From Trichocoleus sp. (GTDB lineage: Bacteria; Cyanobacteriota; Cyanobacteriia; Elainellales; Elainellaceae): a stretch of DNA of 39,581 nucleotides. Shown here one piece after another: positions 6,932-37,393 of the stretch (the stretch's first letter is position 1; the number at the start of each line of letters is the position of its first letter). The DNA lies in contig DATNQD010000070.1 of assembly GCA_036702865.1 (NCBI GenBank), forward strand, positions 1 through 39,581, in the 5' to 3' direction. A program made the translations under genes and the position numbers. The notes beneath the pieces are model-generated. The model had not been told where the DNA came from. It worked only from the letters and a program-made list of their open reading frames with translations, and did no database searches.

Positions 6932-7058
6932 TTCGCTAGTATATACCTTTAAGGACTGGTGTATAAATACTATCTATTTTAGTACAAAAGATCTACAAAC
7001 TTCTCAATTGGGTACGATTTGTGTCAAGTTTTGTAATTAAACATAGCGACGCAGCATA

Positions 7059-7143
7059 ACATAACGTCACGGCAGCGGACGCTTGAAGGTTGTTTGTGCT
7101 TAGTTCCAAGTTATCCACCGGTCGCTGCGTTTTGTCGTTAGAC
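7059..7143 (+). repeat. integron attC-like site 2
   Basis: R''-like ACATAAC (7059-7065) and R'-like GTTAGAC (7137-7143) both fit the consensus boxes. The left arm CACGGCAGCGG pairs with the right arm CCGGTCGCTGCG with an extra G on the left side. With site 1 it brackets the DUF5131/tcmP operon, defining a cassette of about 1.95 kb. Confidence 0.7.
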
Positions 7144-7383
7144 TGCTGAGTCATCTGTAGGAAGGATGTGTCAATGTTATCTGCAAGAATTCAAGCTGAA
7201 ATTATTTTGAAGCTATTGTAGAGCGGCAATACAAGTACTTCGCATAGTGCAATTCCTAACGTTCATTAGGTGACAGAAGAAACCTAGTCTACGTTAATTG
7301 ATAAGTAGGTTACAAAGGATATTTGCAATGAAACTTGCTGCTAGAGTATTGCTTGATTTGTTCTTTAGTTATTGCATCCTGGT

Positions 7384-7518
7384 TTGTCCTGGGTGAACAA
7401 TGAAGTAACGCACAAAGATCTAGTGAGAGTTTTACAATGGCTCACTTCCTGGAAGCGTGTAGATGTAGCTGGTGCTCCTAGTCAAAGTAATGGAGCAGCA
7501 TTAACTGTAGAAGTGTAA
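7384..7518 (+). CDS. possible small or degraded cassette gene, 44 aa
   Basis: A frame from TTG 7384 (or GTG 7393) reads LSWVNNEVTHKDLVRVLQWL and then TSWKRVDVAGAPSQSNGAAL to a TAA at 7516-7518. The composition looks like real protein. A different frame just upstream, starting at ATG 7329 (MKLAARVLLDLFF...), runs into a stop at about the same place, so the gene may be a frameshifted remnant. It is the only coding candidate in the 517-bp cassette between attC-like sites 2 and 3. Confidence 0.25.
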   Translation: MSWVNNEVTHKDLVRVLQWLTSWKRVDVAGAPSQSNGAALTVEV

Positions 7519-7570
7519 ATTTTCTGGAACAAATCCTGATAACAGTTTTACGAATTAGTAAAAGAGAGCA

Positions 7571-7660
7571 CTCTAACAATTTGCTTGCACACCGACCGTA
7601 TCAAGTTTATCGATTGAGTTCGAGAAGATTACCAGCGGCGGGTGAAGCGGAACGTTAGCT
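7571..7660 (+). repeat. integron attC-like site 3
   Basis: The left end CTCTAACAATT (R''-like at 7571-7577) and the right end AACGTTAGCT (GTTAGCT, 7654-7660) bracket arms TTTGCTTGCACACCG and CGGCGGGTGAAGCGG. These pair except for an extra G in the left arm (GCTTGCAC against GCTTCAC). Confidence 0.7.
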
Positions 7661-7750
7661 GGCTTCACCCTTTGATGGGGATTGCACTTATTAAGTCACT
7701 AATGGGTGCAAATACCGCGTAGTCAATCCTTAGTTCCAATACTCAGAGTT

Positions 7751-8353
7751 ATGATGAAAGCCTTTCACTCTTTTGCTCGAAAATTCTCTAAAATTTCTGC
7801 AATAGGTTTAGCAGCAGCTACAACCACTGCTATTTGTCTAACCATCTTGCCCAATGCTCAAGCACAAATTTCTGCGGGTCGGTATGAAGCCCAGCCGAAT
7901 GGTCAAATTTTCTTCTACCCTGCAAATGGAAGTAATCCTGTAGTAACTTACAACGGCAGACAACGTGCTCTAGCTATTGTTCAGTATGGTAATGCACTCT
8001 ACACAGCTTTTGATGGAGGTGGGATCTACCTTAGCCCAGATGGTCAAAATCTTGGTGGTGGCGGTAGAACTACACGAGTTTACCCAGGTTCGCAGACTGT
8101 CAAGGCTTTGCTAGTTTGCCAAAATGCTATCTTTACTGCGTTTAGTGGAGGGTATATTTACCGTAGCCCAGATGGTCAAAACCTTGGTGGCGGTGGCAAC
8201 ACTGAGCGCGTGTACAGTGGGTCTCAACTTGTAAATCGAATGCAATGCAGCAACAGAGGTAGTGTTATCACATCTTTTAACGGTGGTGGGGTATATGAAA
8301 GCCCAGACGGAAGGAACCTTGGAGGAGGAGGACAGACATTTCGATTGAATTGA
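7751..8353 (+). CDS. secreted repeat protein, about 200 aa
   Basis: The frame is open from 7706, but the likely start is ATG 7751 (or 7754), directly before a classical signal peptide: MMKAFHSFARKFSKISAIGL, a hydrophobic stretch, then LPNAQAQ with cleavage after AQA. The mature part has three tandem units of about 45 residues, each containing GG(G)IYxSPDGQNLGGGG(R/N)T followed by RVYxGSQ, with the last unit cut short. The regular aromatic and Gly spacing suggests a small beta-propeller or beta-solenoid, but I do not recognise the family. It is the cargo of the cassette between attC-like sites 3 and 4 and is read in the same direction as those sites. Confidence 0.7.
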   Translation: MMKAFHSFARKFSKISAIGLAAATTTAICLTILPNAQAQISAGRYEAQPNGQIFFYPANGSNPVVTYNGRQRALAIVQYGNALYTAFDGGGIYLSPDGQNLGGGGRTTRVYPGSQTVKALLVCQNAIFTAFSGGYIYRSPDGQNLGGGGNTERVYSGSQLVNRMQCSNRGSVITSFNGGGVYESPDGRNLGGGGQTFRLN

Positions 8354-15945: not shown

Positions 15946-15976
15946 GACGGGTTCTCAATTTGAGAACCTGACTTAA
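15946..15976. repeat. palindromic repeat, copy 1
   Basis: The core GGTTCTCAATTTGAGAACC (15950-15968) is a perfect 19-bp odd palindrome. The sequence from GACGG before it to CTGACTT after it recurs at 16285 with two or three changes, so more than the palindrome is conserved. It could be an operator for a dimeric regulator or a recombination site. Confidence 0.6.
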
Positions 15977-16284: not shown

Positions 16285-16314
16285 GACGGGTTCTCAATTT
16301 GAGAACTCGACTTG
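16285..16314. repeat. palindromic repeat, copy 2
   Basis: The core TTCTCAATTTGAGAA is preceded by GACGGG, as in copy 1, and followed by CTCGACTT where copy 1 has CCTGACTT. The copies are direct repeats about 339 bp apart. No further copy was seen in the window. Confidence 0.6.
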
Positions 16315-16726: not shown

Positions 16727-18232
16727 TTAGACAAAGCTCTTTATTTCCAGGTTGGCGTACTTCAGCCCACTCGCATTACGAGCGTATTCAACAGCTTCTT
16801 CTGGAATCTCGCCAATGGTCACTAAACCATCGTGCTGATTGTTAATGACCTCAAAGCCGTATTCGGCACTAACGATCGCCAGGTGGTGAATGAAAGCAGC
16901 CTCAGTACCTTGCAGCCAAAACGCAGCCAACTTCATGCCCAATTTAGCTTTGTTAACCCAGTTGCCTTTACTATCCTTCCACTCAGAGAGGTTAAACTTA
17001 GCGCCACAGCCATTGGTTAAGTACTGGGTTCCTTTTGCATAGGAGCTAACGCCCATTTTCTTGGGGTGGACTTCAATCAACCAGCTATGCCATTTCGCTA
17101 ATTCTGTCTGTAGGGCAGAAGTAACTTCATCAAACTTGGTGCTGAACTCTAGCATCTTTTCAACATCGCCATCAGCTTCCTTAAGAAGATACTCAACAAT
17201 CTTGTGACGAATCGCTTCCTTTACTTCTTTATCAGTTGTAGCATTACGTAGATCTTCCAATTCCGCCTTGCGAAGAGAGTTGCCACCCATAATCAGGGCC
17301 ACAAAGCACTTCTTCCAGCAGTCTTTGCTAATACCAATGGTATCGGCGTAGACTTTCTTATCCTGATTCAGATACTCAACCAACCATTGAGTGTTGAGAC
17401 CCGCTTCTTCAAACCATTGAATCAGCCCCCACACCTGGCTCGACTTGAGATCGTAATTGAATAGCCTAAGAATACCGCTAAATGCTCTATATTTCATTTC
17501 TCTGGTGCAATTTTGCATCCCAACACCTTTTTCAGTGATTCTGCCTGTTGACTGCATTCTATAAGCAGGCTCATATTCAGCAAGACCACCCTCTAGTTTT
17601 TTAAGGTTGCTTTTCTTAACCGTGATGATCGCCGCTCTATTAATTCTAAAGATCTTAGCATCTCTCTCTGTAGCGGAACCCAAGATTATATCGGCTTCTA
17701 GATCGCTAAGGTATGATTCAGCTTCCTGAAGGTTAATGACGCAACGTTTAACACTTTTCATAGAATTGCTAACTAATTCAGGAATGGCAACGCCATTAAC
17801 AGTCTTCAATTCGTGACGAGCGTACTTCGCCATCTTGCGATTATTCACCAGATTAATCGCTTCAAACCCTTCTTCATCTACAGCATTGGATTCTACATCC
17901 AAAAACTTATCAACCCTGGCATCAACTACTTTGAATTCACGACACAATCCAGCGACCTTGGAATAGTTTTTGCCTTCTCCAAGATCTTTAACTTCAATCA
18001 ATCCTCTCTCAACTAATACTTCCCAAAGCACTTTGCACTTTGAACCCCAAGTTTTTTGCATCAATTTAGCAGGAACGGGGCAGTACTCTCCTTGCTCAGG
18101 TCTGTGGTTGATAGAGTAGTGAAGTACGTGAACAAAGAAATGACGGGTCTCTTCATTTAAAGACCTTAACCATTCATCAACTAGGTCAGCTGCTGTTTTT
18201 GCAACTCTGTAGGAAGAGATGATGTATTGCAT
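16727..18232 (-). CDS. putative phage/plasmid replication protein with family A polymerase-like palm motifs, 501 aa
   Basis: Three segments in the right order resemble family A polymerases: RMQSTGRITEKGVGMQN (226-241, like TGRxxS..PNLQN), NYDLKSSQVWGL (259-270, motif A with Asp261), and QGTEAAF...NNQHDGLV (441-471, like QGTAAD and motif C, with His467-Asp468). Between them WKKCFVALIMGG (306-317) sits where motif B (K-x7-YG) lies. There is no exonuclease domain; residues 1-120 look like a helical/winged-helix DNA-binding part. The motif reading is mine; overall similarity to known polymerases is too weak to be sure. It starts at ATG 18230-18232. A ribbon-helix-helix gene lies upstream on the same strand and a hairpin follows. 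A diverged polymerase or primase-polymerase acting in prophage replication is the leading idea. Confidence 0.55.
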   Translation of the reverse strand: MQYIISSYRVAKTAADLVDEWLRSLNEETRHFFVHVLHYSINHRPEQGEYCPVPAKLMQKTWGSKCKVLWEVLVERGLIEVKDLGEGKNYSKVAGLCREFKVVDARVDKFLDVESNAVDEEGFEAINLVNNRKMAKYARHELKTVNGVAIPELVSNSMKSVKRCVINLQEAESYLSDLEADIILGSATERDAKIFRINRAAIITVKKSNLKKLEGGLAEYEPAYRMQSTGRITEKGVGMQNCTREMKYRAFSGILRLFNYDLKSSQVWGLIQWFEEAGLNTQWLVEYLNQDKKVYADTIGISKDCWKKCFVALIMGGNSLRKAELEDLRNATTDKEVKEAIRHKIVEYLLKEADGDVEKMLEFSTKFDEVTSALQTELAKWHSWLIEVHPKKMGVSSYAKGTQYLTNGCGAKFNLSEWKDSKGNWVNKAKLGMKLAAFWLQGTEAAFIHHLAIVSAEYGFEVINNQHDGLVTIGEIPEEAVEYARNASGLKYANLEIKSFV

Positions 18233-18373: not shown

Positions 18374-18535
18374 TTATTCTTGATCCTGTCCTTGTCGCTC
18401 CAAGTACTCTCTTACTGCTCTTCTCAGTAAATCAGCAGTAGTTAAACCTTCCTTCTTTGCCAACCCTGCAAGCGTTTCTAAATGCTCTGCTGGAACTCGC
18501 AGATTCGTATGCTTGAAGTTTCTTTCTGATGACAT
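18374..18535 (-). CDS. ribbon-helix-helix (CopG-like) regulator, 53 aa
   Basis: Read from ATG 18535: MSSERNFKHTNLRVPAEHLE, then TLAGLAKKEGLTTADLLRRA and VREYLERQGQDQE. A short beta strand (TNLRVP) followed by two helices with the turn KEGLTTADLLRRAV is the classic RHH fold, binding DNA as a dimer through the strand. It lies 141 bp upstream of the polymerase-like gene on the same strand and diverges from the HTH gene at 18687, so it is well placed to control the region between the two operons (18536-18686). That control is inference. Confidence 0.7.
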   Translation of the reverse strand: MSSERNFKHTNLRVPAEHLETLAGLAKKEGLTTADLLRRAVREYLERQGQDQE

Positions 18536-18686
18536 ATTCTGTTGTGCAATTGCTGTTGAGAACTTATTGTGTTCTCTTTTTAAATATTAACAATTAATTC
18601 AGTCGAACAACAACATTAAATTAATTGCCCACTAACAATTCCTATACATTCCCTTTAATAGAAATCATCAACGCAGAAGGGGAAAT

Positions 18687-19100
18687 GTGAAAACTAATAC
18701 GGACAAAGACTTTATCTACAAGAGAGCGTGGCAGCTATTTTGCTCAGGTACTTCAATCCGCCAGCTTGCCAAATACTTTGGCATCCCAAGAGCCACCCTG
18801 CAGTACAGATTCCAGAAGCTTTATGGTAAGGACTACTGCCAGTATCAAAACCTTAATGGTGTAGTTCAAATCATTGATGAATATCTCAAGCGCAGGGATC
18901 TTACTCCAGTTCAGAAGCAGCAAATCTTGGAATGGAAAGAGCGGCGACTCTCTGAGATTCTAGAAGTGGACTTCTCCAACAGAGAAACAAGGCTGCTCAC
19001 TGAGCGGCAGATGAACACGCTTACCAGACAAGAGTGCCACCACCCTAAAGATGACTGGAGAAATAGAATCTCTGAGCTTCACTTCAAAAAGACAATATAA
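18687..19100 (+). CDS. HTH protein, first gene of the prophage late operon, 137 aa
   Basis: The start is GTG 18687, supported by GAAGGGG about 6 nt upstream. Residues 12-45 form a Psq/resolvase-like helix-turn-helix: AWQLFCSGTSIRQLAKYFGI and PRATLQYRFQKLYG. The rest is helical and charged, with a DLTPVQKQQILEWKERRLSE segment. It stands first in the plus-strand phage block, before the terminase genes, so it may be an activator of late genes or a terminase-associated DNA-binding protein. A candidate -10 (TATACAT, near 18643) lies in the AT-rich region upstream, but no firm -35 was seen. Confidence 0.65.
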   Translation: MKTNTDKDFIYKRAWQLFCSGTSIRQLAKYFGIPRATLQYRFQKLYGKDYCQYQNLNGVVQIIDEYLKRRDLTPVQKQQILEWKERRLSEILEVDFSNRETRLLTERQMNTLTRQECHHPKDDWRNRISELHFKKTI

Positions 19101-19687: not shown

Positions 19688-20146
19688 ATGGTTAAAAGAC
19701 GCAAATACAGCCCTGAGCGGGTGGAGGTCATGTGTGATGTCCTGACTCAGACAGGCTCAGATAAGTTAGCTTATGAAGCCGCTGGCATCTCCGCAGACTG
19801 CTTTTATCGCTGGCTATCTGAGATACCTGAATTCCATGAGCAAATCCAGGCTGCAAGAGAAGAATTCTTCAACAAAGGGAAGCAGGTTGTCTTCGATCGC
19901 ATCACAACAGCAGAAGCCTACATTGATAGAGTCATCCAAGGTAAAGAGTTCCAGGTAAAGCGGTTCACTGAGACCACTACCCTCGCTAACGGGCAACAAG
20001 TCCTTAAAGAGCGCATAGAAGAAGTACAGCTAAAGCCCAACTACTGGATGCTAGAGCGGGTGTTGGGTAAGACAGCTGATTCCAGCACTCCAGACTATGC
20101 GATCGAGATCAACCTAGCTGAACCTGAGGTCAATGAGGATGAGTAA
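19688..20146 (+). CDS. terminase small subunit-like protein, 152 aa
   Basis: The N-terminal helix-turn-helix PERVEVMCDVLTQTGSDKLA followed by AYEAAGISADCFYRWLSEIP is the DNA-recognition part seen in small terminase subunits and related phage proteins. A helical middle (HEQIQAAREEFFNKGKQVVF) may mediate oligomerisation. The C-terminus is acidic (EPEVNEDE), as often seen where it contacts the large subunit. Its stop overlaps the next gene by 14 nt, and that gene encodes the large terminase subunit. Recognition is by position plus HTH; sequence similarity alone would be weak. Confidence 0.75.
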   Translation: MVKRRKYSPERVEVMCDVLTQTGSDKLAYEAAGISADCFYRWLSEIPEFHEQIQAAREEFFNKGKQVVFDRITTAEAYIDRVIQGKEFQVKRFTETTTLANGQQVLKERIEEVQLKPNYWMLERVLGKTADSSTPDYAIEINLAEPEVNEDE

Positions 20147-21404
20147 ACTCGCTCTCAACCTCCACCGCAGTCAAGCCCAGGTCTTTCAAGATGCAGCCCA
20201 ATTCAAACTACTGGTTGCTTCAAGACGTTGGGGCAAGAGTCGCCTTCTCTTGACCAGCATTATTCACGCCGCACTCTCCTTTAACCAGGCTATTGATCCT
20301 GCCAGTCCCCCTGTCATCTTGCTAGCAGCCCCTACGCTCAAGCAAGTTAAAGCAGTTCACTGGAAGCCACTGCTGAATTTACTGGAGGGTAAACCTTTCA
20401 TTAAATCCATCAATAAGTCTGACTACCGCATTGACTTCAAGGGCAATAAACCATCTATTCTGCTGCGGGGCACAAATGACGGCGATGGGGATGGACTGCG
20501 AGGGCTGAAGCTTTACTTTGCTGGCTTAGATGAGATCCAAGACATTAAGGAGATTGCTTGGGAAGAAGCGATTTTCCCTGCACTTGCAGATACTCCAGGT
20601 TCCAGAGCCCTGCTAATTGGCACTCCCAAAGGATTGAATCACTGGCTCTACAGCAACCTCTATCAAAAAGCGATCGCTACTGCTGGTTGGGGCTACCACC
20701 ATTACACCGCACTAGATAATCCCTTCCTGCCCCGCTCCTTTATTAATAGAGCCAGGAGGGATCTGCCAGAGCGGGTGTTTAAGCAAGAGTTCCTGGCAGA
20801 GTTCACCACATTTGAAGGGCAGCTTTTAGACTGCTTGGAAGACCATCATCTGCTGGATATCCTGCCTGCTGAATTTGACTCTGTACTTATTGGCGTGGAT
20901 CATGGCGACCAAAATCCCTGTTTGACTGTCATTGGACTAAAGCAAGGCGTTTACTACATCCTGGACTGCTGGACAAACCCACATCCTGGTCAACCTGTCA
21001 CACCAGACCAAGTAGTGGAACAAGCAGCTCAGCTTTGTCAGAAGTACAACGTTCACCGCTGCTACTTACCAGATGACAGACCCGCAGCAGCCCTGACATT
21101 TAGAAGACATGGCGATCGCCACAACATTGGTGGACTGAAGCGATCCGTGACTGTCACCAGAAATAAGCCAGGGGTGATGGAAGGCGTGGGCATTCTAAAT
21201 TCCCTTTTCCACCAGGATAGGCTCTACATCAACAAGCGCCTACAGCCTTTAATCAACGACTTCAAAAGCTATCACAGAGCCACAGACTCAGAAGGTAATT
21301 TTCTGGATAAACCTGCTGAAGGTCAGGCAGACCACACGGTTGATGCCACCCGCTACGCTCTCTCCACTCTGGAGTTCCGCCACAACATTCTCGCAGCTGC
21401 TTAA
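20133..21404 (+). CDS. terL: terminase large subunit, 423 aa
   Basis: The ATPase domain has a Walker A-like ASRRWGKSR (29-37) and a Walker B-like KLYFAGLDEI (126-135, with Asp133-Glu134), followed by a coupling-type LLIGTPKG segment (161-168). The nuclease domain starts with VLIGVDHGDQNPCL (Asp256), continues through a Tyr/Asp-rich strand, and ends with GQADHTVDATRYALSTLEF, matching the metal-binding layout of RNase H-like terminase nucleases. The protein drives DNA packaging into the prohead and cuts concatemers. It starts at ATG 20133 (or 20139) inside the end of the small subunit gene, giving translational coupling, and is followed 18 bp later by the portal gene. Confidence 0.9.
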   Translation: MRMSKLALNLHRSQAQVFQDAAQFKLLVASRRWGKSRLLLTSIIHAALSFNQAIDPASPPVILLAAPTLKQVKAVHWKPLLNLLEGKPFIKSINKSDYRIDFKGNKPSILLRGTNDGDGDGLRGLKLYFAGLDEIQDIKEIAWEEAIFPALADTPGSRALLIGTPKGLNHWLYSNLYQKAIATAGWGYHHYTALDNPFLPRSFINRARRDLPERVFKQEFLAEFTTFEGQLLDCLEDHHLLDILPAEFDSVLIGVDHGDQNPCLTVIGLKQGVYYILDCWTNPHPGQPVTPDQVVEQAAQLCQKYNVHRCYLPDDRPAAALTFRRHGDRHNIGGLKRSVTVTRNKPGVMEGVGILNSLFHQDRLYINKRLQPLINDFKSYHRATDSEGNFLDKPAEGQADHTVDATRYALSTLEFRHNILAAA

Positions 21405-23679: not shown

Positions 23680-24453
23680 ATGACAAATATCTCACGCTAT
23701 TTTCAAATTCTTGAGGTTGAGCAAGGTGTTTCTCAGGAAGAAATTAAGCAAGCCTACAGGGACTTGGCTAAGGTGTGGCATCCTGATCGCTTCTCCGACG
23801 ACCCAAGATTACAGAAAAAAGCAGAGGGGAAACTAAAGCAGATTAATGCTGCTTACGAGTTCCTTAAATCCTATCAGCCTCAAAGCACCCAAGCCAAAAC
23901 TCAATCTACTCATGAACAACCTGCTCAACAAGGCAGGAGCAGGGCTACGACTGAGCGACCCGTTGAAATCACAGTAGACTGCGAAAGACTCAAGAATCTA
24001 CTGAACCTGGGAAAGTGGAAGGAGGCAGATGTTGAGACTACATCACTCTTACTGGGAATAGCACATAGACAACGAGAAGGTTGGTTACGCCCAGAAGATG
24101 TTAAATTTTTGCCTTACCAAGATCTAATTCTTATCGATCACCTGTGGCTTGAGAAAAGTAACGGCCGCTTTGGATTTAGTGCTCAAAAGCAGATTTGGCA
24201 TAAACTCAGTTGCAAATCATCCATGAGCATCAGTACTCAAACAATCAGTGAGAAGAGATTTGGTCAGGCTGTCCAATGGCATACTGCCAGTTCTTGGCTG
24301 CTCAAGTGGGATAATTTCAGCCACAGTACTCAACTTCCTCAAGGTAGCTTGCCACGCGACTACATTTTTGCAATGAGCGGTTGGTGGAACTACTCTAAGG
24401 GAGCAACAGGTTATCTCATTTGGAACTTTGATAACCTCTTTCTCAAACTTTAG
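23680..24453 (+). CDS. DnaJ-domain / GUN4-domain fusion protein, 257 aa
   Basis: Residues 3-66 are a J domain with a proper HPD motif at 34-36 (KVWHPDRF), so Hsp70 recruitment is expected. After a Gln/Thr-rich linker (67-95), residues 102-257 are a GUN4-like domain: RLKNLLNLGKWKEADVETTS, EGWLRPEDV, LILIDHLWLEKSNGRFGFSA, then FGQAVQW and LPQGSLPRDYIF. GUN4 domains bind bilin or porphyrin precursors, are best known from chlorophyll synthesis, and also occur in cyanobacterial signalling fusions. Linking one to a J domain inside a phage operon is unusual. It starts at ATG 23680, 33 bp after the upstream gene. Its role may be sensing or regulation of a partner ATPase, inferred only. Confidence 0.85.
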   Translation: MTNISRYFQILEVEQGVSQEEIKQAYRDLAKVWHPDRFSDDPRLQKKAEGKLKQINAAYEFLKSYQPQSTQAKTQSTHEQPAQQGRSRATTERPVEITVDCERLKNLLNLGKWKEADVETTSLLLGIAHRQREGWLRPEDVKFLPYQDLILIDHLWLEKSNGRFGFSAQKQIWHKLSCKSSMSISTQTISEKRFGQAVQWHTASSWLLKWDNFSHSTQLPQGSLPRDYIFAMSGWWNYSKGATGYLIWNFDNLFLKL

Positions 24454-26114: not shown

Positions 26115-27212
26115 ATGACAGAAGATTTTAACTTTGAAGCTTCAGTAAAAGATGCTCTTCGTGAAGCATTCAAAGAACGTGGCAATGTCAACATCCTAAT
26201 TGCTGGAGCTACTGGTGTTGGGAAAAGCACCCTGATCAATGCAATATTTCAGGGCAAGATGGCTGATACTGGTCAGGGTCGTCCAGTCACTCCCAACACG
26301 CGAGAGATTAAGAAGGATGGTATTCCACTTTCTATTTTTGATACTCGTGGCCTTGAAATGGCTGATTTCGCTGCCACAATGAATGAATTACGAACCCTGG
26401 TAACTGACCGCGCTAGAGACATTGACCCTAAAAAGCACATCCATGTTGCCTGGATTTGTATCCTTGAGGATTCACGCCGAGTACAGCCAGCAGAAGAGGA
26501 ATTGGTTAGAATGCTGGCAGACCATATGCCTGTTGTTGCTGTCATTACTAAAATACGATCGCAAAAGTCTGACAAAGGATTTCGTGCTGAAGTTCAAAAG
26601 CTACTGCCACTAGCGAAAAATGTAGTTCGTGTTCGAGCACTTCCTGAAGAAGATGATGATGGCAATATTAAACCTGCAATTGGGCTGAAGGAACTTGTGG
26701 ATTTAACAATGCAGCTAGTACCTGAAGGTCAAAAAAGGGCTTTCGTTGCTGCTCAAAAAATAGATATTGAATTAAAAAAAACACAATCCCACACCATAGT
26801 AGCTACAGCAGCAGCTAGTGCAGCAGGAATTGCAGCAGTGCCAATTCCCTTCTCTGATGCGGTAGCTATCGTACCTATTCAAGTTGGCATGCTTGCTGGG
26901 ATCTCTGCAACTTTTGGCTTGTCAATTGATGAGAGCTTTCTTAGTACAGTGATAGGTAGTATTGTCGTTGGGGCAGGTGGCACATTTGCAGGACGAGCCA
27001 TTGTATCAGGGCTGCTGAAGTTTATTCCTGGAGTTGGCTCAGTGCTTGGGGGCGCGATCGCAGCAACTACAGCAGCAGCACTTACAACTGCCTTTGGTGA
27101 GGCGTACATTGCTGCATTAGACATGTTATTCGTTAAGAACGAAGGTGAACCTCCTACACCCAATGAAGTTGCAGAAGCTTTCAAGAGGAAGTATCAAAGT
27201 TTGTCACTGTAG
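26115..27212 (+). CDS. P-loop GTPase with DUF697-like C-terminal domain, 365 aa
   Basis: G motifs are clear: G1 GATGVGKST (31-39), a G2-region Thr in PVTPNT (57-62), G3 DTRG (76-79) and G4 TKIR (145-148, in place of the usual NKxD). This is the Era/MnmE-like or YfjP-type GTPase layout. Residues about 225-345 are rich in Gly, Ala and Ile with hydrophobic segments (AAASAAGIAAVPIPFSDAVA; LKFIPGVGSVLGGAIAATTA), as in DUF697, a membrane-linked domain. The start ATG 26115 lies 14 bp after the membrane gene. A membrane GTPase next to an EcsC-family protein and a J-domain/GUN4 protein suggests an accessory system within the prophage; the function is unknown. Confidence 0.85.
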   Translation: MTEDFNFEASVKDALREAFKERGNVNILIAGATGVGKSTLINAIFQGKMADTGQGRPVTPNTREIKKDGIPLSIFDTRGLEMADFAATMNELRTLVTDRARDIDPKKHIHVAWICILEDSRRVQPAEEELVRMLADHMPVVAVITKIRSQKSDKGFRAEVQKLLPLAKNVVRVRALPEEDDDGNIKPAIGLKELVDLTMQLVPEGQKRAFVAAQKIDIELKKTQSHTIVATAAASAAGIAAVPIPFSDAVAIVPIQVGMLAGISATFGLSIDESFLSTVIGSIVVGAGGTFAGRAIVSGLLKFIPGVGSVLGGAIAATTAAALTTAFGEAYIAALDMLFVKNEGEPPTPNEVAEAFKRKYQSLSL

Positions 27213-31914: not shown

Positions 31915-32874
31915 ATGGTTTCAGTCAACTCAATGACTCCTGTAGATGCAATTAGTCTTGTCATTCAAGAGCAAATTGCTGAACTACGGATCACAGATTA
32001 TCCAATTCTTAATTTAATTCGCAAGGACAGCGCTTATCAGTCTGCTATCAAGTGGGATGTCAACGTTTCCACTGATGCAACGCAAGGGTCTGCTGTGAAT
32101 GCAGATGCACCTGCTGCAAGCTCTGATACGGTACGGGGTGCTAACTTACCTATTGGTATCTATGCCTTCCGCGAAACCTTTGACCTGCTCAAGACGGATA
32201 TTCGCCAAGCGCGTACAGCAGCCCCCAGTGCCCTGAAGAATCTCATTGCTGCTCAAACCCGCTCCAAGATTCTCAAGATCATGAAGGGTCATAACCTGGC
32301 TCTGTATGTGGGTGCTGGTGAACAGGTAAGGGGTGGTATCTATGGTCTAGATACGATCGCTTCAAGCACTGCGACCTACGCAGGTATCAACCCTGCAACT
32401 GCGGGTAATGAAGCCTGGATTGGTCATGCTGAAGATACGGTTGGCGCATTGACAGCAGACAAGATGGATAGTGCAGCTGAAGCAATGTATACGCTTGGCA
32501 GCAACTTTACCCACATTGTCACCACGCCTACGATCGTTACCAAGTACAAGAAGCTATTCCGCGACAACCACATGACCGCTGGCAATGTTGCTGGTACGGC
32601 TGACATTGGTTTCACTGGCGTTACTTATGAAGGTCGTCCTGTAATTCAAGACCGTGACTGTCCTGAAGGGGCTATGTATTTTGTAGATGAGCCTCAACTG
32701 AGTCTTCACACTTATGCAGTGGATGGGGTTCAAACCATGCGCGGCTTGAACGTTGTGATCGCAGAATTGCCTTCTAACAGTTCTCTAGCAGTGCGCTTTG
32801 AAGTTGCTGTCATCTCTCAGCTCCAAGCGTTCGATAGACGTGCTGTTGCGAAACTGGGCGACATCACAGGCTAA
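31915..32874 (+). CDS. major capsid protein, 319 aa
   Basis: It fits phage coat proteins of the SU10/DUF5309-like group in size, position and sequence. The N-terminal helix region (TPVDAISLVIQEQIAELRIT) is followed by an Ala/Ser-rich loop (VNADAPAASSDTVRGANLPI), an E-loop-like strand (IYAFRETFDLLKTDIRQART), a core with conserved-looking helices (GNEAWIGHAEDTVGALTADK) and a C-terminal segment ending AVISQLQAFDRRAVAKLGDI. It builds the HK97-type icosahedral shell. It starts at ATG 31915, after the scaffold-like gene and before the connector genes, with a 51-bp gap on the right. Confidence 0.85.
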   Translation: MVSVNSMTPVDAISLVIQEQIAELRITDYPILNLIRKDSAYQSAIKWDVNVSTDATQGSAVNADAPAASSDTVRGANLPIGIYAFRETFDLLKTDIRQARTAAPSALKNLIAAQTRSKILKIMKGHNLALYVGAGEQVRGGIYGLDTIASSTATYAGINPATAGNEAWIGHAEDTVGALTADKMDSAAEAMYTLGSNFTHIVTTPTIVTKYKKLFRDNHMTAGNVAGTADIGFTGVTYEGRPVIQDRDCPEGAMYFVDEPQLSLHTYAVDGVQTMRGLNVVIAELPSNSSLAVRFEVAVISQLQAFDRRAVAKLGDITG

Positions 32875-34783: not shown

Positions 34784-34973
34784 TATTAAATGTCAAGCTC
34801 ATAGCGGTGTCGCGACAATCAAGTTGGCAGTCTAGCAAATTAGGCAAGTAGAGTTACCAGAGTTAAGATCAACACTGACAGAACTTGGCTGGATAAGGTT
34901 GAGTGATTCGATAACTGAAAAGAGCAAGCTGAAGCCGCACAGCAAGTGGAACGTCAGTGTGACAACCAGAATT

Positions 34974-35061
34974 GAAATGTCAAACTTAAAACGAAATGAC
35001 AATCAGGATCGAAATGTCAAACCTAAAACGAAATGACAATGAGAGATCGAAATGACAACTA
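34974..35061. repeat. tandem terminal motifs of the IS21 element
   Basis: CGAAATGTCAAAC, TAAAACGAAATGACAAT, again CGAAATGTCAAAC and TAAAACGAAATGACAAT, and a final CGAAATGACAA occur within 88 bp. They share GAAATGNCAA with the left end TAAATGTCAAG, as expected of multiple terminal repeats bound by IS21-type transposase. Confidence 0.65.
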
Positions 35062-35091: not shown

Positions 35092-35901
35092 TCAAGTGGG
35101 GGAAGTAGATCGCGCTTGTGCAGACTGCTTGCGGAAGCTCTCGGCTTGAATATCGATAATGAGGGCATGATGCACCAGTCTATCGACGGCAGCAACGGTC
35201 ATCATCGAGTCAGCAAAGATCGTATCCCACTGACTGAAGGGTTGGTTGGCGGTAATGAGCAAACTTTTACGCTCATAGCGATGGGCAATGAGTTCAAACA
35301 ATACGGAGGTTTCCGCCTCCGACTTTTTGACATAGCCCAAGTCGTCCAGAACAATCAAGTCAAAGCGGTCGAGCTTTTTAAGGGCAGCTTGCAGTTGCAA
35401 ATGCAGCTTTGCCTGCTGAAGCTGTTGCACCAGGGCAATTGCTGGAAAGAATTTGACCCGTTTGCCAAACTCCACCATAGATCGCGCGATGGCGGCGGCG
35501 ATATGAGTTTTGCCAACGCCGGAAGCCCCAAAGATGAGGCAGTTGTCTGAGCGTGCCAACCAGGACGGGTCTTCTGCCAGTTGCCGAATGGGGGCAGGAT
35601 TGAGCTTGGGCACATGAGACCAGTCAAAGTTGGAGAGGGTTTTGGCGTTGGGGAGTTGGGCTTCTGAGAGGGCGCGTTTGAGCCAAGTTTGCCAGCGATG
35701 GTGCACCTCCGATTCGCAGAGTTGCAGCAAGAACTGGGCGTAAGACCACCCCTCCTGCATCGCTTGTTGTTCGAGTGATTCCCAGTGGTGCAGCATATGG
35801 GAGAGGTGCAACCGCTTGAGGTGCAGGCTGAGGCTCTGGTAGGGGCTGACGGGGGGATGATTCGTCTTGGTTGGAGGAGTGGGTGGGCAGGAGTTGGTCA
35901 T
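35092..35901 (-). CDS. istB: IstB, IS21 helper ATPase, 269 aa
   Basis: An AAA+ ATPase with Walker A GASGVGKT (125-132), Walker B LIVLDDLGY (182-190), and the IstB-type end ERKSLLITANQPFSQWDTIF. The N-terminal part (1-120) is the usual DnaC-like lead-in. It selects and remodels target DNA for the transposase (family knowledge). The start MTNSCPPTPP (35901) lies deep inside istA in a different frame, an overlap of 278 nt, which is unusually long; a later start (for example near residue 27-36, LKRLHLSHML) is possible. Confidence 0.9.
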   Translation of the reverse strand: MTNSCPPTPPTKTNHPPVSPYQSLSLHLKRLHLSHMLHHWESLEQQAMQEGWSYAQFLLQLCESEVHHRWQTWLKRALSEAQLPNAKTLSNFDWSHVPKLNPAPIRQLAEDPSWLARSDNCLIFGASGVGKTHIAAAIARSMVEFGKRVKFFPAIALVQQLQQAKLHLQLQAALKKLDRFDLIVLDDLGYVKKSEAETSVLFELIAHRYERKSLLITANQPFSQWDTIFADSMMTVAAVDRLVHHALIIDIQAESFRKQSAQARSTSPT

Positions 35902-37393
35902 AGGTGGATAAGTCGTGTTGGGTCACTTGCAAGGTGGGTACGGGGGTTGGACTGAGCAGTTGAAAGTGTTGCTGTAAGCGCATCAATGTCAGAGTCTGTG
36001 CGGACAGTTGCGCTTCAAGATAGTTTGCCACCCTGGCTTCTTTGTCCTGAGTCGCGGCGATGTAAAGGGCTTCGACCATCAGCAGTGCCGCACTGTCGGG
36101 GTCAAACTGTGCCTTCAGTTGCGCCCATAGCGCTCGGTAGTGCTCATTGGGCAACAGTTCTTGCTGCCAGGTGCAGTAGAGGAACGCTCGTGGTTTTCGC
36201 CGCAGTCCCTCAATCACATGGCGGTAGTTGATGCAACGGGCACGCCGTTTGGTTGGGTCAATTGAGCGCACTCGTGGCAGTTCTACCACCACCTGATGGT
36301 TCCAGTAGCCCACGATGCGGTCGTGATACAGGTGCAACTCCAAGGTGCGCCCGATTAAGCGCGAGGGAACGCTGTACAAGATAGAGCGCACCTCAATCGT
36401 GCTACGTGAACTGACCTTGGCACTGACCACTTCGTAGTCCGCAACTCGGTATTTGGGCAGCACTTGCAGAAACGGTTTCTCTTGCTCAAACTTGATTTGG
36501 CACTGCACGTTCAAGCCATCAATCGCTGAGTTAATCACCGACTGGTACTCACCGACACTGGCAAAGTCAAAGCTACCCCGCAGGAACAACGCTTGCTCGA
36601 TGCGGTTCTTCAGGTGTCCGTGGGGTGACTCGATACTGCCGTTCTCGTGAGCAATGCCCCGGTTGTTGCGAGTCGGCTGCATCCGGTAATGCTGGCACAA
36701 CTGGTCATAGAGTTGAGTGACGGCTTGCCCTTTACCGCCACTGTTGCGATACGCCGCACTCAAGCTATCGGTGCGATGTTGTTTGGGTACGCCTCCACAG
36801 GCACTCAAGGCATTCTGCAATCCCTCGGACAAGGCAACAAAGCTTTCCCCACCTTGAATAATCTGAGCATATTGCCACCCACTGTAGCCCAAGCGGTAGT
36901 GGTAGATTAAGTGCTCAAACGGCTTGCCATTGATGGTGATCTCAATCCCTTTGAGTTCGGTGAAGTCTGAAAACCCCATTCCTCCCGGCTCATGACGCAA
37001 CTCAAACATCACCTCTGGCGAGGCTCCATGCAGCACACGCCAATCTGCCACTCGTCGTTGTAACGTTCGCAACACGTTCGCGTATTTACCTGGGTATTTC
37101 TGTTGCAGATACTCAAAGAGGGTCATGGGTTTGAGTCGCGGTTGCTGTTGCAACATCGGTTCCAACTCGTCCTCCCAAATGCCCTTGAGCGGGTCGGGCT
37201 TCGTCCTCTCTCGTTTCTGCCCCCGCTTGGGTTGATGCTCGCCTGCTTCAATGCGTTGTGCTGTTCGTTCTGAAAACTCAGCAACATAAGCGGCATCAGC
37301 CTGCGTTAAGCCGATTTCTCGTCCGTTCATGTACACTCGTAGTTGATAATTTTTAATTATTTTTCCAGGCACTATTGGCTTCTCCTTTTCCAC
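35624..37393 (-). CDS. istA: IstA, IS21 DDE transposase, 589 aa
   Basis: The N-terminal HTH part (LTQADAAYVAEFSERTAQRI) is followed by a DDE catalytic core: SDFTEL with Asp143, QHRTDSLSAAY with Asp209, and AHENGSIESPHGHLKNRI with Glu255. A beta-barrel-like domain (RSTIEVRSILYSVPSRLIGR) comes next. The C-terminal tail (about 500-589) is Pro/Gln-rich and unlike family norms, because it continues over the first 278 nt of istB in another frame; IstA is usually about 500 residues. The start is GTG 37391-37393, with AUG at residue 22 (MNGREIG) as an alternative. Confidence 0.85.
   Translation of the reverse strand: MEKEKPIVPGKIIKNYQLRVYMNGREIGLTQADAAYVAEFSERTAQRIEAGEHQPKRGQKRERTKPDPLKGIWEDELEPMLQQQPRLKPMTLFEYLQQKYPGKYANVLRTLQRRVADWRVLHGASPEVMFELRHEPGGMGFSDFTELKGIEITINGKPFEHLIYHYRLGYSGWQYAQIIQGGESFVALSEGLQNALSACGGVPKQHRTDSLSAAYRNSGGKGQAVTQLYDQLCQHYRMQPTRNNRGIAHENGSIESPHGHLKNRIEQALFLRGSFDFASVGEYQSVINSAIDGLNVQCQIKFEQEKPFLQVLPKYRVADYEVVSAKVSSRSTIEVRSILYSVPSRLIGRTLELHLYHDRIVGYWNHQVVVELPRVRSIDPTKRRARCINYRHVIEGLRRKPRAFLYCTWQQELLPNEHYRALWAQLKAQFDPDSAALLMVEALYIAATQDKEARVANYLEAQLSAQTLTLMRLQQHFQLLSPTPVPTLQVTQHDLSTYDQLLPTHSSNQDESSPRQPLPEPQPAPQAVAPLPYAAPLGITRTTSDAGGVVLRPVLAATLRIGGAPSLANLAQTRPLRSPTPQRQNPLQL

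Follow-up and report, generated by a model that had tools for sequence, protein, structure and literature searches.

Gene content of the locus

The window, i.e. the whole 39,581-nucleotide stretch of the Trichocoleus sp. contig analysed in this study, contains a phage gene block whose leftmost member is the gene of interest. Its open reading frame (18232..16727, - strand, ATG start, TAA stop), with the extent first reported, encodes a protein of 501 aa, which we annotate, from the reading frame, the predicted structure and its fold matches, as a TV-Pol-like family A-type polymerase with an N-terminal winged-helix-like domain. Just upstream lies a gene for a 53-aa ribbon-helix-helix (RHH, CopG-type) protein (18374..18535, - strand; Pfam RHH_1, 6.2e-8). 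The block continues on the opposite strand with genes for a helix-turn-helix (HTH) protein (18687..19100, + strand; Pfam HTH_psq, 7.7e-7), a small terminase-like protein (19688..20146, + strand; Sf6_terminase, 8.6e-6, just under the cut-off of that profile), the large terminase (20133..21404, + strand; phrog_2, 7.3e-40, and Terminase_6C, 1.9e-8), a scaffold protein and the major head protein (31915..32874, + strand; phrog_9953, 6.4e-11).

The HTH gene opens a divergent block that is syntenic between genomes: this gene, a 140-aa gene, the large terminase gene and the following 500-aa gene are common to loci L013, L014, L032 and L034, each of which has the polymerase gene nearby and an integrase assigned by BLAST cluster (Pfam-tested in L013 and L014). 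Over the whole set, an integrase is linked to the polymerase gene in 6 of 29 loci by the same clustering (Pfam-tested in L013, L014 and L017) and is also present in L016, while serine recombinases are encoded in L012, L016 and L021. The window proteins scanned, which represent part of its open reading frames, include no recognised integrase.

Several other elements were recorded in this region. Between the terminase and head genes, positions 23680-24453 encode a fusion of DnaJ and GUN4 domains (GUN4 8.5e-29, DnaJ 1.9e-15), which may be a host-like insert or cargo of the phage block. A GTPase with DUF697 (26115-27212; MMR_HSR1, 9.6e-10) is encoded within the same block, and an IS21-type pair, composed of IstB and a Mu-transposase-like protein (35092-37393), adjoins a 37-bp tandem repeat of 2.6 copies (34960-35058).

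Small RHH-looking proteins are encoded upstream of the polymerase gene in several loci. Seven of them were tested with Pfam: RHH_1 was recognised in three (from the window, L032 and L037), and the other four gave no match at E<=0.01. Nor was an OB fold detected by Pfam in these seven short upstream proteins (upstream open reading frames were listed for 20 loci), such partners being of a kind that escapes sequence search. A search for iterons or an origin near the gene in several loci and in a Calothrix plasmid (see below) yielded short repeats of 2-4 copies and no iteron-like array.

A 29-nt sequence containing a 17-bp palindrome GTTCTCAATTTGAGAAC is present twice in the window (15946-15974 and 16285-16313), the two copies being 93% alike, and the pattern GGTTCTCAANTTGAGAAC has no further occurrence in the 5.9-Mb assembly. 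The RHH gene has a half-site (18556-18563) about 20 nt upstream; the half-site 8-mer is found six times in the window against 2.1 expected, a number reached in 1 of 100 shuffles. The palindrome copies and the half-site are perhaps operators of the RHH protein.

Predicted structure of the protein

The full-length AlphaFold2 model, built with the 23 rows of alignment A4, has a pLDDT of 90.3 and a pTM of 0.86. It comprises an N-terminal domain (residues 1-133; 17834..18232, - strand) and a polymerase domain (residues 134-501; 16730..17833, - strand), in which the model and VIA-align delimit a thumb-like part, a palm and fingers. The thumb is formed by two antiparallel helices (168-183 and 189-206) and is accompanied by the strands of a beta-hairpin (217-226) and by the conserved R231; D261 lies on a palm strand (257-262) and D468 on a hairpin (461-473).

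A Foldseek search of the PDB returned 191 matches at E<=1e-3, and the best 50 of these 191 are all family A DNA polymerases by title; the leaders among the matches listed are Pol theta, the apicoplast polymerase of Plasmodium and mycobacterial Pol1, and Taq ranks slightly lower. In VIA-align, most rows of which cover residues 134-501 or nearly so, Pol theta (Z 15.9, 301 residues, 3.5 A) is accompanied by yeast mitochondrial RNA polymerase (Z 15.7, 309 residues, 4.5 A), T7 DNA polymerase (Z 15.3, 302 residues, 3.9 A) and Klenow (Z 15.1, 299 residues, 4.0 A). These Z values are tied, and the fold therefore cannot tell a DNA from an RNA polymerase. The first four BFVD matches include uncharacterised proteins of Dickeya JA29, Dickeya JA11 and Erwinia Yoloswag, followed by phage PolAs, and the best 50 include virophage replication proteins (Zamilon, Qinghai Lake); the Dickeya JA11 protein is kin of the window protein by sequence as well. 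As modelled, residues 134-501 are a right-hand family A fold with palm, fingers, thumb and an invariant active site.

Sequence searches with the protein were far less informative. Pfam gave nothing above cut-off, neither PF00476 nor any nuclease or exonuclease domain, the sole row being DUF6031 (E 0.081); PHROGs gave a weak match to PHROG 30690 of unknown function (3e-5), and a search of PDB sequences gave nothing below E 1. Against a set of 20 cyanobacterial PolA proteins, hhalign gave an E value of 0.13, which is not significant, and a score of 20.1 (11 decoys scored 14.2-18.4). Of the two computational checks proposed in an earlier note on this DNA, structure prediction bore out its suggestion of a family A fold, with Klenow, T7 DNA polymerase and mitochondrial RNA polymerase among the matches; the profile search gave no significant match to PolA, and the profile of the family finds gene MAP_030 of cyanophage Ma-LMM01 (see below).

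Residues 1-154, modelled alone (9 rows), gave a pLDDT of 80 and the order H-E-H-H-E-E (H27-42, E51-53, H55-62, H70-75, E79-81, E97-102), which is that of a winged helix. Foldseek found no match under 1e-3 for this domain (best E 0.027, the list being mostly MarR-type regulators by title). The best VIA rows, weak ones, are ORC2 domains (Z 6.3, 95 residues, 3.7 A), and lower rows contain archaeal Orc/Cdc6 and the plasmid initiators RepA of pPS10 (Z 5.0), Pi (4.6) and RepE (4.4); the same list also holds Fur, ArsR, TFIIE, TFIIH, RNA polymerase III and plant immune receptors. Such Z values are too low to prove kinship, so the winged-helix reading relies mainly on topology. In the model, the N-terminal domain has winged-helix topology and is a probable DNA-binding domain.

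Conservation of the active site

Alignment A3 contains 31 rows that are 20-50% identical to the window protein, 29 of which have letters at the scored positions; near-duplicate pairs such as L018/L030, L035/L036, L039/L040 and L001/L002 are counted separately. Neither A3 nor its 29-row counts include L026, L029, MAP_030, the L011 gene or duplicate copies (of the window gene, in L004 and L010).

The conserved motifs all lie on the - strand. The template-side motif, TGR...NLQN-like, reads T229-G-R-I and M239-Q-N (G230-R231 to Q240, 17513..17545; R231 27/29, Q240 29/29). Motif A is N259-Y260-D261-L-K-S-S-Q266 (17435..17458; N259, D261 and Q266 each 29/29), and the fingers motif B is K307-x8-G316-G317 (K307 to G316, 17285..17314; K307 29/29, G316 25/29). 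The QGTAAD-like segment Q441-G-T-E444-A-A-F (Q441 to E444, 16901..16912) is conserved in 28 rows for Q441 and in all 29 for G442 and E444, and motif C, Q466-H-D468-G-L-V, has an invariant H467-D468-G469 (HDG, where PolA has HDE; 16826..16834; 29/29 each). N407 is likewise invariant. Conservation at this level of identity indicates that the motifs are not due to chance. The earlier note had read them in this order at these places of the 501-aa frame and had described the protein as short and lacking an exonuclease, and on both points it was correct. An Arg at position -4 from the fingers Lys (RxxxK) is present in none of the 29 rows, which have V (14), K (9), E (2), L (2) or I (2) instead.

We take D261, K307 and Q441 to be the equivalents of Asp705, Lys758 and Gln849 of Klenow, and H467-D468 those of His881-Asp882, with G469 replacing Glu883. 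By ungapped count from D261, Q266 would presumably correspond to Glu710, the sugar gate. In the hhalign comparison with PolA, TGR, QN, K-x8-G, QG and HD are in register, whereas motif A is off: S265-Q266 is paired with the Ser-Gln of PolA DYSQIE, which moves D261 off the PolA Asp. As the two registers differ, the sugar-gate reading of Q266 is unsure.

Outside A3, the L026 protein keeps every scored active-site residue. In MAP_030, D261, K307, Q441, E444 and HDG are retained, but residue 266 is His and residue 442 is Arg. The interrupted L011 gene has D261, Q266 and K307, with QG-x-E and HDG in its other frame, and L029 is a fragment with X at D468.

Relationship to TV-Pol and distribution of the family

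TV-Pols, defined by Iyer, Abhiman and Aravind in 2008, possess a minimal family A core without a nuclease, occur in mobile elements and viruses, and are predicted to prime and to polymerise; their members include one of cyanophage Ma-LMM01, in which a TV-Pol element is integrated, and their neighbours include IS605-type transposons (PMC2579912). The A4 profile finds one gene in Ma-LMM01, MAP_030 (E 1.7e-26; a second stretch has E 8), and the A3 profile covers the N-terminal domain and the polymerase domain of MAP_030 to about residue 385, and again at HDG. PF00476 detects in this phage only a PolA at 157-159 kb, in three pieces. MAP_030 adjoins OrfB_IS605 and Y1_Tnp genes, a location beside an IS605 transposon that fits the Ma-LMM01 TV-Pol of PMC2579912; from this adjacency and the profile match we infer that MAP_030 is that TV-Pol. 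The family belongs with, or next to, TV-Pol, and, as the RxxxK Arg is missing, the window protein is called a TV-Pol-like variant and not a plain member. The statement of the earlier note that the protein is otherwise unlike known ones does not hold in view of MAP_030, and of its proposal of a new branch of DNA or RNA polymerases or primase-polymerases, the family A fold stands and the novelty of the branch does not, TV-Pol kin having been described since 2008.

By tblastn, relatives annotated as hypothetical proteins were identified in five records with E values between 6e-9 and 1e-5, from two Vibrio phages (GR7B, GR11A) and two Dickeya phages (JA11, JA33). Homologues are also encoded by two cyanobacterial plasmids, the 33-kb one of Synechocystis sp. 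B12 and the 13.7-kb plasmid6 of Calothrix sp. NIES-4105. The gene is rare in cyanobacterial genomes (6/386; by profile 5/388, the two samples sharing genomes). An alignment-guided scan produced 12 viral loci and, in bacterial genome contigs, 12 loci including SAR324, Desulfosarcina, Salinivenus and a deltaproteobacterium, some of these 12 being genomes or a plasmid already found; scanning genome and viral contigs with a single sequence gave no confirmed relative. In the tree, no starred clade comprising up to half of the rows includes the window protein, and Dickeya JA11 and MAP_030 have long branches and unsure positions. The earlier note suggested a use by cyanobacterial prophages; the protein is indeed encoded there, but homologues in Desulfosarcina, SAR324, Vibrio and Dickeya jumbo phages and plasmids mean that the family is not confined to them.

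Some individual copies deserve mention. The gene of the Synechocystis B12 plasmid (L011, 7475-9095) is interrupted, its C-terminal part with HDG being in another frame. The homologue of Salinivenus lutea (L026, 7234-10272) is a 1013-aa protein extended at its N-terminus by about 340 residues, and Pfam recognises no domain above cut-off. A copy in a 190.9-kb viral contig (L031, 8980-10476) contains one in-frame TGA; a changed genetic code is not clearly supported by counts of frames of at least 150 aa in the stretch analysed (11 frames with 2858 aa under table 11, 12 with 3221 aa for TGA=W and 12 with 3138 aa for TAG=Q). The Calothrix plasmid (L012), which has a gene for a large serine recombinase, also encodes a HerA/FtsK-like ATPase (6971-8170; DUF87, 1.9e-4, under the cut-off of that profile), and might be a tailless virus genome.

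Other replication genes were sought in 17 gene-bearing records, some of which (those from IMG/VR) may be fragments. PolA was found in six (Vibrio phage GR11A, Dickeya phage JA11, Ma-LMM01 and IMG/VR contigs of 45, 114 and 191 kb), DnaB_C also in six (that of Ma-LMM01 below cut-off) and D5_N in one, the helicase being about 12 kb from the polymerase gene. In nine records (L030, L032, L033, L034, the L037 group of three, one of which is a 9-kb fragment, and both plasmids) none of the three families was detected; of these, only L032 and L034 were seen to share the terminase block of the window, the rest being viral or plasmid records. No known Rep was recognised by Pfam among 15 proteins scanned of the Calothrix plasmid, whose record lists 25 genes.

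Discussion

The best explanation of these data, to which we assign a probability of roughly 0.58, is that the protein is a family A primase-polymerase of TV-Pol type that carries a DNA-binding head of its own and acts as the replication protein of a temperate cyanophage. The winged helix would recognise the origin of the element, the polymerase domain would start chains there without a separate primase and then extend them, and the helicase, clamp and replicase of the host would subsequently take over. CopG limits the expression of RepB; by analogy, the upstream RHH protein probably limits that of the polymerase. In large phages with a regular PolA, an accessory role is suggested by the presence of that enzyme, and the same protein may serve there as a special-purpose priming or initiation enzyme.

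By analogy with characterised enzymes, primase-polymerase is the most likely function, and priming is supported because CCPol, together with MP, primes DNA (PMC7581432). The replication-initiator domains among the weak N-terminal matches also speak for this explanation, as do the family A fold with its invariant active site, the profile match to MAP_030 beside an IS605 transposon, the integrases and serine recombinases at several loci, and the nine records in which no PolA, DnaB_C or D5_N was detected. Against it are the tied Z values of DNA and RNA polymerases, the weakness of the winged-helix matches, with unrelated regulators and receptors in the same list, the non-significant profile comparison with PolA, the search for iterons or an origin that found none, the substitutions of Q266 and G442 in MAP_030, the regular PolA of six of the 17 records, the missing RxxxK Arg of TV-Pols, and the need of CCPol for an OB-fold partner, none having been recognised here among the few neighbours scanned.

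A more specific proposal, which we regard as clearly less likely than not, is a one-protein replicon starter, in which a winged-helix origin binder is joined to a self-priming family A polymerase that possibly has Gln in the position of the sugar gate and may thus begin with ribonucleotides, the third carboxylate being supplied by the invariant Glu of QG-x-E and no longer by motif C (HDG). The unsure register of Q266 lowers the odds of this proposal. We know of no other family A enzyme that serves as a Rep protein of both phages and plasmids without a partner SSB or helicase.

It is rather unlikely that the protein is a primer-dependent DNA polymerase, which extends host-made primers without priming and is merely placed on phage DNA by its winged helix. 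The DNA polymerases heading the Foldseek matches are compatible with this, as is the behaviour of CCPol, which alone only extends primers and requires its OB-fold partner for priming (PMC7581432 and PMC10061031). What speaks against it is indirect: more than half of the records (9/17) have no recognised PolA, DnaB or D5 helicase, and a host-primed enzyme would presumably add little to those of the host.

Still less probable is an RNA polymerase of the T7/mitochondrial style, making RNA primers or transcribing genes of the phage from a promoter to which the winged helix binds. The yeast mitochondrial enzyme matches the model as well as DNA polymerases do, one mitochondrial entry aligns over residues 12-496 (Z 14.2, 405 residues, 5.4 A), Gln may occupy the sugar gate (in an unsure register), and the same idea has been raised for divPolA2 (PMC11348598). 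However, the motifs TGR..QN and QGxEAA resemble, by eye, those of DNA polymerases, and CCPol-MP, the relative that has been characterised, works far better with dNTPs than with NTPs (PMC7581432). The least probable alternative, a repair or bypass polymerase with an accessory role in phages and plasmids and not their replication protein, draws on the PolA-bearing phages and contigs listed above and is opposed by the nine records in which no other gene of the PolA, DnaB or D5 families was recognised.

The kind of enzyme is known (TV-Pol), while the architecture, the residue set and the setting are new as far as our literature searches reach. The novelty lies, within that scope, in the N-terminal domain of winged-helix topology, in HDG for HDE, and in the place of the gene in syntenic temperate cyanophages and two cyanobacterial plasmids; no description of such an enzyme in cyanobacterial temperate phages or plasmids was found in the open-access literature, searched mostly at the level of titles and abstracts. 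Several cyanobacterial plasmids lack a known replication protein (PMC10899382). If our explanation is true, a compact origin-recognising, DNA-making gene becomes a Rep candidate for such plasmids and for small temperate cyanophages, could be the basis of a new vector replicon, and would be an A-family primase of tailed-phage origin. The combination of HDG with the invariant Glu of QG-x-E is, moreover, a natural test of which carboxylates family A polymerisation needs.

Comparison with known systems

The window family resembles TV-Pol in its thumb hairpin, the Arg of the beta-hairpin, the two palm Asp and the fingers Lys, in a length of 400-600 aa without a nuclease, in its occurrence in mobile elements and viruses, and in the integrase, resolvase and KilA-C-type antirepressor genes that lie nearby in some loci. 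It differs in the residue at RxxxK, in a winged-helix-like N-terminus as opposed to the all-helical domain predicted for some TV-Pols, and in that no adjacent D5 helicase was found. The species list of PMC2579912 includes Ma-LMM01 and no cyanobacterium.

Like the CCPol-MP and PolA-SSB primases of SCCmec and other Bacillota islands, the protein is an A-family polymerase of a mobile element (PMC10061031). In vitro, CCPol together with MP starts DNA strands de novo, for which both of its Asp residues are required (PMC7581432), and the window family keeps two invariant Asp; PMC7581432 also states that, to the knowledge of its authors in 2020, no TV-Pol other than CCPol had been biochemically characterised. 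CCPol-MP differs in its dependence on the OB-fold partner, in sitting with a helicase, and in a polymerase that looks Pol I-derived, with exonuclease remnants (PMC7581432 and PMC10061031).

The divPolA1 and divPolA2 proteins of Caudoviricetes are likewise divergent family A proteins of phages that lack a working exonuclease, and divPolA2 has an N-terminal domain unlike others (PMC11348598). The A4 profile, which can miss distant kin, gave nothing at E<=10 in one divPolA1 phage (MW353176) and one divPolA2 phage (MG592441), and PF00476 matches both genomes. Finally, CyRepA and CyRepX invite comparison as replication proteins of cyanobacterial plasmids; they were rejected as the family of the protein described here, being helicase-like (DEXDc/HELICc; PMC10899382), whereas this protein matches no helicase family and has the fold of a family A polymerase.
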